This document shows, in pieces, positions 10,499 to 14,799 of a DNA stretch of 64,000 nucleotides. The position numbers and the translations under genes are program-made. Position 1 is the first letter of the stretch. Each line of letters opens with the position of its first letter. The stretch covers positions 1 to 64,000 of the forward strand of contig JAQGJU010000143.1 of NCBI GenBank assembly GCA_028290465.1, in the 5' to 3' direction. The notes beneath the pieces were generated by a model. The model saw only the letters and a program-made list of their open reading frames with translations, searched no databases and was not told the origin of the DNA. The stretch comes from Xanthobacteraceae bacterium. Lineage in GTDB: Bacteria; Pseudomonadota; Alphaproteobacteria; Rhizobiales; Xanthobacteraceae.

Positions 10499-11476
10499 TT
10501 ACAGTCCGGACATCGCCTTCTTGTAATAAGACATGTCGATATATTTCTCCGGCGACGCCGGCGGGCCGCCCTGGAAATCGGCGCGCAGCTTCAACACCGT
10601 TTCAAAGCCTTTCATATCGATCGCCGCATCCTTGGCGAATCCCTCCGTCGGGTCCGCGTACAGCGCGAAGGATTTTTCGGCGACTTCCGGGGTCAGTTTT
10701 TGTTTTTCGGCCAGCAGCTTGATGGCGGCGGCCTTGTTGGCCGGGTCCATCACCCAGCGCAGTCCCTGAAGATAGGCCTTCAGGTAATTGACCAGGACTT
10801 CCTCATTCTGTTTGCCCCAATCGCGCATCACCCAGCCGGCGCTGGCCTGATACGGGCCGATCGCCTTCACGGCGCTGCCGAGATCGCGCAGCCCGGCGAG
10901 TTCGCCCTGCACCGAGAACGGCGGATTCAGTATCGTGGCGGCGTTCGTCTTGTCCTTCTGCATCGCCTGCGCGCGAACGAAGGTGGCACCGATCGCCTTG
11001 ATCTCGTAGTCGCCCTTCTTCAGGCCGTTCAGTTCCAGCATCTTGTAGAGCTGCAACGCGTAGGACGTGTTCGGCGCGTCGACGATTACGGTCTTGCCGC
11101 GCAAATCGGCGTAGGACTTGATCTCCGGCTGCACGTAGAGATGATTGATCGCGCTGTCGCCGCCGATCACCACGGCAACGTCCTTCTTGGCGACCTCGGC
11201 CATCGCGATGGCGTTGTCGACACCGCCATGCACGATCTGGTAGCGGCCCTCGCCCAATCCGTTGCGCAATTCGTCCGAGTTCGGCGCGATCTTGACCTCG
11301 ACGGCGAGACCCTGCTTGGCCCACAGGCCCTGCTCTTCGGCCGCATACAACGGCAGATTCTGCACGCCCTGAAACACCATGATGGTGAGCTTGGTCTGCG
11401 CGTTCGCGCCGATTGGCAGAGCTAACAGTGTTCCGGCCGCCACAGCGGCGAGACCGGCATTGCGCCAGACAGACAT
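10499..11476 (-). CDS. ABC transporter substrate-binding protein (SsuA/THI5-like)
   Basis: A 325-residue periplasmic binding protein. The signal peptide (core AGLAAVAAGTLLALP) ends at an ANA-Q site near residue 27. The mature part shows the NMT1/SsuA pattern: LYAAEEQGLWAKQGL, then ELRNGLGEGRYQIVHGG and DLRGKTVIVDAPNTS. No ATPase or permease lies nearby, so it must share a membrane complex elsewhere or be an orphan. The ATG at 11476 has an excellent GGGAGG site. It follows the SAF-domain dehydrogenase by 79 bases and is probably co-transcribed with it, which suggests that it imports the substrate of that enzyme. Confidence 0.88.
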   Translation of the reverse strand: MSVWRNAGLAAVAAGTLLALPIGANAQTKLTIMVFQGVQNLPLYAAEEQGLWAKQGLAVEVKIAPNSDELRNGLGEGRYQIVHGGVDNAIAMAEVAKKDVAVVIGGDSAINHLYVQPEIKSYADLRGKTVIVDAPNTSYALQLYKMLELNGLKKGDYEIKAIGATFVRAQAMQKDKTNAATILNPPFSVQGELAGLRDLGSAVKAIGPYQASAGWVMRDWGKQNEEVLVNYLKAYLQGLRWVMDPANKAAAIKLLAEKQKLTPEVAEKSFALYADPTEGFAKDAAIDMKGFETVLKLRADFQGGPPASPEKYIDMSYYKKAMSGL

Positions 11477-11555
11477 GCGATCCTCCCTTAATTTCATTTT
11501 GTTATGATGAAAGAACAGCGACGTGGCGGCGTTATTCCGTCACACAACTATTCCG

Positions 11556-12923
11556 TCACGCCGCGCTCTCTCCGACGATGTTCGGTCTGCCGAACGCCGC
11601 CTCCATCTCGCGCCGCACTTTCACGGCGGAGTCGTTCGGGTCATAGGCCACGTCGGTCCATTTCAGGCAAGTGCCCTCGGCAATGTCGCTCGTGAGCTTG
11701 ATACCGTGGGCGAGACCGAGCGGCAGCAGCCCGTCGTCCAGCGAGCGCGCCGCCGGCACCTGTTTGCCCCACACGCAGAAGCCGCCCTCGCCGTCCAGCA
11801 TCTCGCCCTTCTTCAGCGCGCGTTTCGCAGTCGCCGCGACATCGGAGCGGAAGCCGGTCGGCGCGCCTGTGGCTTCATGACGCAGCGCCGCGCTCGCCAC
11901 CGAAATGCCGAGTTCCAGCCCGATCATGTGGATTGGCCGGTACAGCGCCGCGAACCGCCCGCTCCGGTCGGGCAGCATCGCGTATTCCCTGAAACAGCGC
12001 CGCGCGTAGTCGCTCTCGCCTTCCAGCACCACGAAGGTGCCGAGCGCCAGATGGTGCGGCACGTCGCGGCCGTCGCGGTACACCGACGACACCACTTCGG
12101 TGACGCCTTCGGTCTCCAGCGCACCGCCGAGCGCTTTCGGCTTGCACACGTCGGCGAGTTCGAAACGCGTGGCCGGCGGAAACGACAGGCCTTCGCTTTG
12201 CGGCAACAGGCCGGTGGCGTTGCACACCGCCGTCATCTCGATGCCGGACTTGGTGCCGTCAACGAACGAGTTGAACATCTTCGGATTGATCGAGGCGCGG
12301 TCGTCGATCTTGAGATACTTGTCGAGGATTTCCCACACCGTGTCTGGATTCGACCGATGATAGTGCGGTTCGTAGCGCGTGCCCTTGCCGGCCGAGATCA
12401 CCTTGAAGCCGCAGGCCCGCGCCCAATCGACATGCTCGCAGATCAGTGCCGGTTGGTCGCCCCAGGCGAGTGAATAAATAACACCGGCCGCCTTGGCCTT
12501 GCGGGCCAGCAGAGGTCCGGCGACCGCATCGGCTTCGACATTGACCATTACGATGTGTTTGCCGTGCGCGATCGATGCGAGGCAATGCGCGATGCCGGCC
12601 GGCGGCACGCCGGTGGCCTCGATGATGACTTCGATGCCGGGATCGGCAATCAGCGCCATCGCGTCGTCGGTGACGTGGGTGCTGCCAGTCCGGAAGGCGT
12701 CGCCGAGCGAAGCCGCCGCATAAGCAGCCTCGTCCCAGCCGGCCGACTTCAACTGCGCGCGGGCGCGGGTCACATCGAGGTCGGCAATGCCGATCAAGTG
12801 CATGCCGATGGTGCGGCGCACTTGCGTGAGGAACATGGTGCCGAATTTGCCGGCACCGATCAGCCCGACCGTCACCGGTTTGCCGGCAGCGGCGCGTTCC
12901 AAAAGTTTCGCGTGCAGATTCAC
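11556..12923 (-). CDS. NAD(P)-dependent oxidoreductase with SAF domain (homoserine-dehydrogenase-like)
   Basis: A 455-residue two-domain protein. The N-terminal Rossmann domain carries GLIGAGKFGTMF (residues 19-30), and the C-terminal part (from about 360) is a SAF domain of the type found in sialic-acid synthase and altronate dehydratase. This combination corresponds to the group annotated as predicted homoserine dehydrogenase with SAF domain (COG4091). Its true substrate is probably a carbon-source intermediate, not homoserine. Context points to catabolism: a binding protein follows it, and extradiol-dioxygenase-like genes are divergently transcribed 111 bases away. Confidence 0.85.
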   Translation of the reverse strand: MNLHAKLLERAAAGKPVTVGLIGAGKFGTMFLTQVRRTIGMHLIGIADLDVTRARAQLKSAGWDEAAYAAASLGDAFRTGSTHVTDDAMALIADPGIEVIIEATGVPPAGIAHCLASIAHGKHIVMVNVEADAVAGPLLARKAKAAGVIYSLAWGDQPALICEHVDWARACGFKVISAGKGTRYEPHYHRSNPDTVWEILDKYLKIDDRASINPKMFNSFVDGTKSGIEMTAVCNATGLLPQSEGLSFPPATRFELADVCKPKALGGALETEGVTEVVSSVYRDGRDVPHHLALGTFVVLEGESDYARRCFREYAMLPDRSGRFAALYRPIHMIGLELGISVASAALRHEATGAPTGFRSDVAATAKRALKKGEMLDGEGGFCVWGKQVPAARSLDDGLLPLGLAHGIKLTSDIAEGTCLKWTDVAYDPNDSAVKVRREMEAAFGRPNIVGESAA

Positions 12924-13034: not shown

Positions 13035-13898
13035 ATGATCCAAATCGAACAGTTGCGCTATGTCCGTCTCGGCACCCGGGATCTGCCGGCCGCGATCGAT
13101 TTCGCGCGGCGCATTCTGGGTCTGGAACTGGTCGAGAAGGCCGACACGCAGGCCGCGTTCCGCTCGGACTTTCGCGACCATACGCTGGTCTATGCGGTCG
13201 GCGAGCCGGGCCTGCAGGCGGTCGCATTCGAAGTACGGAACACCGAGATGCTCGACACCGCGCAGCAGCTTTTGGAGCAGCACGGCTACAAGGTGACCCG
13301 CGGCGACGCGGCCGGCGCGCAGCAGCGCAAGGTCAAGGCGTATGCTTCGTTCCAGGACCGCGGCGGCAATCCGATTGAACTCGTCGTGCGGCCGCTGCAA
13401 TCCGGCTGGCGCTATTTTCCGTCCCGCGATGCCGGCATTGTCGGATTGGAATCGATCGCGCTGCGCTCGACCGCGAATGGCGCCGACGAAGACCTCTGGA
13501 CCAAGCTATTCAACGGCCGGGTCAGCGACTGGATCGGCGACGCGGCCTATATCCGGTTCGACGACGCGCATCACCGTCTGGCGCTGCATCCTGCGAAGAC
13601 GGCCGGCGTCCTGGCGATCGAATACGCGGTCGAGAGCGTCGATCAACTGATGCAGAACAGCTATTTCCTGCAATCGGCGCAAGTCAGGACCGTGCACGGT
13701 CCGGGCCGGCGGCCGACCTCGAACCAGATGTTCCTGACTTTCGTCGGTCCCGATGGCGTGCTGTTCAGCTATGTGGCCGAAGGCACAAAGATCGACGAGG
13801 CAACTCACCGGCCGCGCCAATTCGCCCGCGCGGCGAAATCGTTCTGCGCCTGGGGCAGCCACAGCGACGTCCCCGAATTCGCCATGGTCAAGAAGTAG
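13035..13898 (+). CDS. VOC-family protein, extradiol-dioxygenase-like with metal ligands lost
   Basis: A 287-residue protein made of two VOC modules, homologous to BphC-type extradiol dioxygenases. It aligns without gaps to the next gene product over the first 250 residues. At the positions of the Fe-binding H-H-E triad of that neighbour (140, 194, 245) it has Ser, Ala and Ser. It is therefore unlikely to be an iron-dependent dioxygenase and may be a structural partner, binding protein or an enzyme with another chemistry. The start ATG at 13035 has GGAG 7 bases upstream; the longer open frame upstream is not coding. The neighbour lies 43 bases downstream, so the two form an operon. Confidence 0.85.
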   Translation: MIQIEQLRYVRLGTRDLPAAIDFARRILGLELVEKADTQAAFRSDFRDHTLVYAVGEPGLQAVAFEVRNTEMLDTAQQLLEQHGYKVTRGDAAGAQQRKVKAYASFQDRGGNPIELVVRPLQSGWRYFPSRDAGIVGLESIALRSTANGADEDLWTKLFNGRVSDWIGDAAYIRFDDAHHRLALHPAKTAGVLAIEYAVESVDQLMQNSYFLQSAQVRTVHGPGRRPTSNQMFLTFVGPDGVLFSYVAEGTKIDEATHRPRQFARAAKSFCAWGSHSDVPEFAMVKK

Positions 13899-13941
13899 AT
13901 AAACTTGCGAAGACAAATAAAATGACGATGCGAGGAAGCGC

Positions 13942-14799
13942 ATGATCAAACTACAGGACGTGTCCTATGTGCGGCTCGGCACGCAGGATCTCGAAGGCGC
14001 GACGCATTTCGCCACCGATTATCTCGGGCTCGAAGTCAGCGAACGCGGCAAGGACACGGTCTATTTCAAGTCGGACGCGCGCGAACACACGCTGTGCTAT
14101 TTTGAAGGCGATCCGGCGGACCACACCGCCGCGGTCGAGATCGGCTCGCGCGATGATCTGTCGTCAGCCGCGGCCCAACTCGAAAAGCTCGGCCATGCGG
14201 TCGAGATCGGCACTGCCGAACAGGCCGAGGCCCGCAAGGTGCGCGAGTTCATCGCGTTCAAGGATCCGAGCGGCAACCGCATCGAACTGGTGTGGCGCCC
14301 GGCCCATGGCGGGCAGCGCTATCACGGCGTGCGCGACGCCGGCATCACCGGGTTCAGCCACATTGGTCTGTGCACCACCGACGCGCCGCGCGACGAGGCA
14401 TTCTGGACCCAGGTGTGCAACGCGCGGGTCAGCGACCGGATCGGCGACGCACCGCTGTTGCGGATCGACGAGGTGCACCACACCATCGCACTGTTTCCGT
14501 CGAGCAAGCCCGGCATCCAGCACATCAATCACCAAGTGGAAAGCGGCGACGACGTGATGCGCTCGTTCAATTTCCTCAACGACCGCCAGGTCCGCATGGT
14601 GTTCGGGCCGGGCCGGCATCCGACGTCGTCGGCCAAATTCCTGTATTTCGAAGGCCCGGACGGCATGGTGTTCGAATATTCGTCGGGCGTGCGCTCGATC
14701 GCCGACGAATTGCTGTACCGCGAGCGGCAATTCCCGTTCGAGCCGAAGGGCTTTTGTCAGTGGGGCGCCAAGCCCGACGTGCCGGAATTCCGCAAGTAG
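13942..14799 (+). CDS. Extradiol dioxygenase (BphC-like VOC protein)
   Basis: A 285-residue type I extradiol dioxygenase, expected to cleave a catechol-type ring next to the hydroxyl pair using Fe(II). The full triad is present: His140 (GFSHIGL), His194 (GIQHINH) and Glu245 (VFEYSS), with the terminal signature region FEGPDGMVFEY. The size and two-module layout match 2,3-dihydroxybiphenyl dioxygenases, but the ring substrate is not predictable. The ATG has GAGGA upstream. It is paired with the triad-less paralogue just upstream and is divergent from the SAF dehydrogenase and binding-protein genes. Confidence 0.9.
   Translation: MIKLQDVSYVRLGTQDLEGATHFATDYLGLEVSERGKDTVYFKSDAREHTLCYFEGDPADHTAAVEIGSRDDLSSAAAQLEKLGHAVEIGTAEQAEARKVREFIAFKDPSGNRIELVWRPAHGGQRYHGVRDAGITGFSHIGLCTTDAPRDEAFWTQVCNARVSDRIGDAPLLRIDEVHHTIALFPSSKPGIQHINHQVESGDDVMRSFNFLNDRQVRMVFGPGRHPTSSAKFLYFEGPDGMVFEYSSGVRSIADELLYRERQFPFEPKGFCQWGAKPDVPEFRK

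Follow-up and report, generated by a model that had tools for sequence, protein, structure and literature searches.

Two tandem genes in a 64,000-nucleotide stretch of contig JAQGJU010000143.1 from a Xanthobacteraceae bacterium (hereafter the window) encode paralogous proteins with the fold of type I extradiol dioxygenases, of which the second has an intact metal triad and the first has lost all three ligands, raising the question why a full-length copy with no canonical metal site is kept beside one that retains it. A first, sequence-only reading had suggested that the product of the first gene might be part of a heteromer, serve in binding or regulation, or catalyse another reaction. Our comparative analysis supports this range of roles and, given the co-occurrence of A with the predicted active copy, the frequent 4-nt overlaps, the purifying selection and the matching A and B trees, favours the heteromeric partner: with a probability of roughly 70%, gene A encodes a catalytically silent, metal-free subunit of a hetero-oligomeric type I (VOC) extradiol dioxygenase together with gene B, for which we infer the physical complex, the lack of metal in A, the activity of B and its substrate.

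13035..13898, + strand: gene A, 287 aa, triad-less VOC (type I extradiol dioxygenase fold) paralogue, proposed non-catalytic subunit
13942..14799, + strand: gene B, 285 aa, type I extradiol dioxygenase with an intact His-His-Glu triad

Both reading frames are intact and are separated by 43 nt, and the two proteins share 46% identity over 283 residues with the register held through about residue 250, confirming the earlier description of tandem extradiol paralogues that align without gaps over some 250 residues. Purine-rich, Shine-Dalgarno-like sites precede both genes (GGAG before A, GAGGAAG before B), in agreement with the earlier remark that A is intact and has a good ribosome site; an in-frame ATG 42 nt upstream of the A start offers a longer ORF, and homologues start at the methionine at 13035. 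The Pfam model Glyoxalase (PF00903) matches A and B in two stretches each, and extradiol dioxygenase models also match both, with those for BphC, HpaD and catechol 2,3-dioxygenase spanning B in full and A mainly in its N-terminal half. Comparison with PDB sequences likewise placed both among VOC dioxygenases (3b59, BphC), B over its full length. Neither protein comes near the curated NCBIfam cut-offs for BphC, homoprotocatechuate 2,3-dioxygenase and catechol 2,3-dioxygenase, and the named NCBIfam families considered for A were rejected, as they gave weak matches only, far below their cut-offs. No protein of the window's own genome is closely related to A or B apart from the other member of the pair; the five remaining matches are ordinary extradiol enzymes with 22-26% identity. 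A promoter scan returned one promoter-like site between the two genes (13896-13923, 9/12 matches; shuffled sequences give 0.5 sites) and a terminator scan returned terminator-like sites no more often than chance; neither result was used.

The state of the metal site was followed position by position in 31 relatives of each protein:

13452..13454, + strand: A codon 140 (Ser), first metal His position; Ser, Ala, Gly or Asp in 30/31 A relatives, His in one
13614..13616, + strand: A codon 194 (Ala), second metal His position; Ala, Tyr, Gly, Glu, Asn or Ser in 31/31 A relatives
13767..13769, + strand: A codon 245 (Ser), metal Glu position; Ser, Thr, Gly, Val or Ala in 31/31 A relatives
13569..13574, + strand: A codons 179-180 (His-His), equivalent to BphC His194-His195; invariant in 31/31 A and 31/31 B
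14359..14361, + strand: B codon 140 (His), metal ligand; invariant in 31 B
14521..14523, + strand: B codon 194 (His), metal ligand; invariant in 31 B
14674..14676, + strand: B codon 245 (Glu), metal ligand; invariant in 31 B

The alignment bears out the earlier claim that B keeps His140, His194 and Glu245 where A has Ser140, Ala194 and Ser245. The second-shell residues His180, His226 and Tyr235 are also present in B, and all six positions are invariant in the 31 B relatives. Compared with BphC, homoprotocatechuate 2,3-dioxygenase and catechol 2,3-dioxygenase, with which A has the two-module VOC fold in common and B the triad and the second shell as well, A has neither the triad nor two of the second-shell residues, carrying Arg226 and Thr235 at the equivalents of BphC His241 and Tyr250 (BphC numbering counted from the alignment of B with the PDB sequence). 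Of the 31 A relatives, 30 are without the whole triad and the last without two of its three ligands, and the recurrence of the pair in other genomes indicates that this loss is not due to chance. In one genome (G1176; L106/L127) the A-type copy shows partial ligand loss, with His140 kept alongside Glu194 and Thr245. Among the A proteins the ligand positions drift, while His179-His180, the linker between the two modules and the fold residues are fixed and the C-terminal segment is kept. The motif His179-His180-Arg181 is nearly invariant in A, with Arg181 being A-specific (Thr or Ser in B), Asp165 and Asp176 are almost invariant, and few conserved positions are peculiar to A (Arg43, Arg181 and Tyr210). 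A would, on this residue pattern, be a metal-free protein.

Searches with a profile of A proteins covered the window's family, order, class and phylum, plus one scan each of GTDB contigs and plasmids. The genome search recovered a triad-less A in 29 genomes, the window's included, and four further records hold one (Bradyrhizobium jicamae, an Acetobacteraceae MAG, a Tistrella mobilis plasmid and Pseudosulfitobacter plasmids), so that the pair, which the sequence-only reading had proposed to look for elsewhere, is indeed found in other genomes. Every triad-less A in these 33 genomes or plasmid records from several families is accompanied by a nearby B with the full triad (HHE), and none of them is decayed or frameshifted. 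Within the window's own family both genes occur in 16/16 genomes with a match, and no A without B was seen among the searched family, order, class and phylum genomes, GTDB contigs and plasmids. B without A was found in 11 genomes and in Burkholderiales plasmids (Paraburkholderia, Cupriavidus, Caballeronia), exclusively on other branches. A copy on its way to loss should, as had been pointed out, be met alone, decayed or absent in related genomes; A was never alone or decayed, and it was absent only where B lies on those other branches. The recurrence of the pair in more than 30 genomes and plasmids therefore marks A as a kept partner and not as a decaying gene. Three genomes of one other family (L045, L050 and L052; genomes G358, G268 and G435) carry a tandem pair in which both copies have the His-His-Glu triad, apparently a separate duplication without ligand loss.

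The arrangement of the two genes is as regular as their co-occurrence. A always lies upstream of B in the 32 same-strand pairs, 29 of which are within 49 nt (32 nt in L038), and 14 of the 32 overlap by exactly 4 nt (ATGA or GTGA), a count that is not one of independent events since four of the 14 are Tistrella-like relatives. Overlaps of this length are over-represented where genes encode the subunits of one heteromeric complex (PMC10666635). There are two exceptions to close linkage: in G1176 the genes are about 1.7 kb apart with a class II aldolase and a GntR/FCD-type regulator between them, and the Acetobacteraceae MAG has them on opposite strands with 4.1 kb in between.

Purifying selection acts on A, whose dN/dS between close relatives is 0.10-0.34 (0.03-0.18 for B), but A changes at roughly twice the rate of B (median distance ratio 2.2). 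The A and B distance matrices of 31 pairs correlate with r = 0.86 (0/5000 permutations), and 14/28 tree splits are common to both proteins, where shuffling gives a mean of 0.23 and a maximum of 4; this mirrored history is partly a matter of transfer as one unit. In a tree of 91 proteins all 32 A sequences group together (SH-aLRT 89), and those 31 B sequences that come with an A fall into a single clade (SH-aLRT 95), outside which the B proteins that have no A are placed. After removal of the eight catalytic columns, the free tree and a tree that keeps A in a single clade were tied (p 0.515), and a placement of A nested inside the partnered-B clade was neither supported nor rejected by the AU test (p 0.10). 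These trees are read most simply if A arose once and the pair has since been inherited and transferred jointly, which is likely although not proven.

Structure predictions, run as single chains for the window, L032 and L033 sequences, gave a two-module VOC fold for both A (AlphaFold pLDDT 80.5, pTM 0.83) and B (pLDDT 86.0, pTM 0.86). In the comparison with BphC structures that had been suggested for the pair, the A model aligns with solved catechol 2,3-dioxygenases, BphC and homoprotocatechuate dioxygenase at Z about 29-30 over roughly 250-265 residues. One further feature stands out in A:

13395..13436, + strand: linker between the two VOC modules, A residues 121-134 (R126, R131, D132, G134), candidate subunit contact

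The domains of A are looser than those of B by 0.7-0.8 bits (mean column entropy 1.87 vs 1.09 and 1.41 vs 0.68), whereas the linker is equally tight in both (1.04 in A vs 1.00 in B). The monomer model of A falls below pLDDT 50 at residues 123-127, which belong to the linker, and in the C-terminal segment 251-275, and these low-confidence stretches carry well-conserved motifs (R126, R131-D132 and G134 in the linker; R261, C271 and W273 in the C-terminal segment). Since both stretches are conserved yet undefined in the monomer, subunit contacts would be expected there, making the linker and the C-terminal segment of A candidate contact regions as judged from the models.

In relatives the pair sits within aromatic operons of two types, which are meta-cleavage operons for carboxylated catechols. 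In the first, a benzoate/anthranilate-like Rieske dioxygenase, ferredoxin, dehydrogenase and TetR regulator come directly before A and B; this type was found in Bradyrhizobium and others and in Pseudosulfitobacter, an amidohydrolase-type decarboxylase is often present, and the Pseudosulfitobacter operon adds a hydratase, an aldolase and a HOPDA-type hydrolase. The second type (Tistrella and others) contains a class II aldolase, a 2-hydroxymuconic semialdehyde (HMS) dehydrogenase, a hydratase and TRAP transporters. An HMS dehydrogenase beside the pair scores above the curated cut-off in four taxa (L037, L125, L118 and L033). In the meta pathway of 2,3-dihydroxybenzoate, the type I enzyme DhbA/OpaC acts before a decarboxylase, which is either a class II aldolase or an amidohydrolase, and before an HMS dehydrogenase (PMC6362003), and the p-cumate pathway is a related meta pathway (PMC5224996). 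Because the operon content of the relatives matches these two pathways, B is most likely, in relatives with such operons, a carboxy-catechol 3,4-dioxygenase, as predicted from gene company.

This prediction cannot simply be carried over to the window: at the thresholds used, the window's own genome (G000) yielded no class II aldolase decarboxylase and no 2-hydroxypentadienoate hydratase, although B and other extradiol-like proteins are present, and no close HMS dehydrogenase was found, the best HMS-dehydrogenase-like protein being 34% identical. Two neighbours of the pair in the window are:

11556..12923, - strand: DRL/SAF-domain NAD(P)-type oxidoreductase, divergent neighbour (Pfam DRL_cat 9e-54, SAF), putative context partner
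10499-11497, - strand: periplasmic NMT1/TAXI-like solute-binding protein, adjoining the DRL/SAF oxidoreductase

In G943 and G935 the A-B pair has the same surroundings, with the divergent DRL/SAF oxidoreductase on one side and the genes downstream on the other. A homologue of the solute-binding protein also occurs near the pair in G960, suggesting uptake of a substrate. In relatives of the window's clade, UbiD-type decarboxylases adjoin the pair in L120 (G960) and L129 (G839), and genes for a xanthine-dehydrogenase-type molybdenum hydroxylase adjoin it in L120 (G960) and L130 (G827), which together suggest that the substrates are aromatic or N-heteroaromatic.

In textbooks, type I extradiol dioxygenases are homo-oligomers, BphC, homoprotocatechuate 2,3-dioxygenase and catechol 2,3-dioxygenase among them. 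In the hetero-oligomer that we favour, B would bind Fe(II) (or Mn) via His140, His194 and Glu245 and would cleave a catechol next to a hydroxyl group, the substrate probably being a carboxylated catechol of the 2,3-dihydroxybenzoate or 2,3-dihydroxy-p-cumate type. A would have arisen by duplication followed by loss of the iron ligands, and may have been retained as a replacement for a B protomer in the oligomer, held by its conserved linker and C-terminal segment, where it could stabilise B or shape the B active site, its access or its regulation. Such a design resembles that of 2-aminophenol 1,6-dioxygenase AmnA/AmnB (also CnbCa/CnbCb; ARO dioxygenase), in which catalytic and ligand-less homologous subunits are encoded together, as are the ligand-less A and the predicted catalytic B, and the alpha subunit is without metal ligands. 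In this type II enzyme, alpha and beta form a heterodimer and fall in one tree, the iron is located in the beta active site, and each subunit is insoluble when expressed alone (PMC10470539). However, the AmnA/AmnB heteromer has been demonstrated whereas that of A/B is deduced from the genes, and AmnA/AmnB has the type II (LigB-like) fold whereas A and B have the VOC fold, so that a silent-subunit design in A/B would be an independent case. A search of the open-access literature found no description of a silent VOC-fold dioxygenase subunit.

A different picture comes from the type I enzymes to which B is likened by size and gene company, namely DhbA/OpaC (2,3-dihydroxybenzoate 3,4-dioxygenase) and PsbC2 of Rhodopseudomonas palustris. 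OpaC has 285 aa, the size of B (PMC6362003), and the pathway partners of DhbA/OpaC, i.e., a CHMS decarboxylase (class II aldolase or amidohydrolase), an HMS dehydrogenase and a TRAP transporter, are also found beside B in relatives. Unlike A/B, OpaC acts alone: expressed by itself in E. coli it gave the ring-cleavage product, and the paper reports no triad-less partner (PMC6362003). The numbering of PsbC2 suggests that R. palustris also has a PsbC1, and PsbC1/PsbC2 might be the same A/B pair, in which case work on p-cumate in that species may already describe it. That OpaC works alone calls for caution about the heteromer, as do the 1.7 kb between A and B in G1176 and their position on opposite strands in the Acetobacteraceae MAG, and a separate metal-free function of A would produce the same genomic pattern.

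It is this separate function that competes most directly with the heteromer, although we consider it unlikely. A would then work in the same pathway without ever touching B, binding the catechol or the ring-cleavage product or carrying out a follow-on step with His179/His180, and purifying selection on A, the aromatic operons, the near invariance of His179-His180-Arg181 despite the lost metal site, with its A-specific arginine, and the MAG in which the two genes are not adjacent would all fit. Against this, these operons already supply enzymes for the decarboxylase, dehydrogenase, hydratase and hydrolase steps, the three A-specific conserved positions are not much to make up a new active site, no A was found without B in the genomes, contigs and plasmids searched, and the 4-nt overlaps with B recur. 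The same conserved histidines could also be taken, together with a neighbouring acid such as the almost invariant Asp165 or Asp176, as an alternative set of metal-holding residues in an altered metalloenzyme. This is improbable, as the three canonical ligands, His226 and Tyr235 are all replaced in A, positions 140, 194 and 245 vary freely across its relatives, and B, in which these histidines are not ligands, conserves the pair just as strictly.

The faster evolution of A (ratio 2.2) and its lost catalytic residues are also what a degenerating duplicate heading for loss would show, and this view has to be set against an A that is intact in 33 genomes or plasmid records of several families, never solitary or frameshifted, with dN/dS of 0.10-0.34 and with mirrored trees that imply long retention; we therefore regard the degenerating copy as ruled out for practical purposes by recurrence, selection and trees.

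Returning to the silent subunit, a more specific version states that a metal-free paralogous subunit completes or gates its partner's active site in a hetero-oligomeric VOC-fold extradiol dioxygenase, that this is a second, independent invention of the silent subunit, and that the two genes travel as a transferable module across Alphaproteobacteria; we give this fuller statement about even odds. If the reading is true, a conserved, obligately paired and ligand-less paralogue would make type I extradiol dioxygenases a case of pseudoenzyme-assisted catalysis, and solo B proteins, tandem active pairs, A with partial ligand loss and A with full loss would form an evolutionary series. The reading accounts for many database entries annotated just as 'VOC family protein', and it implies that A-type genes should not be named dioxygenases and that B should not be assayed without its partner A.
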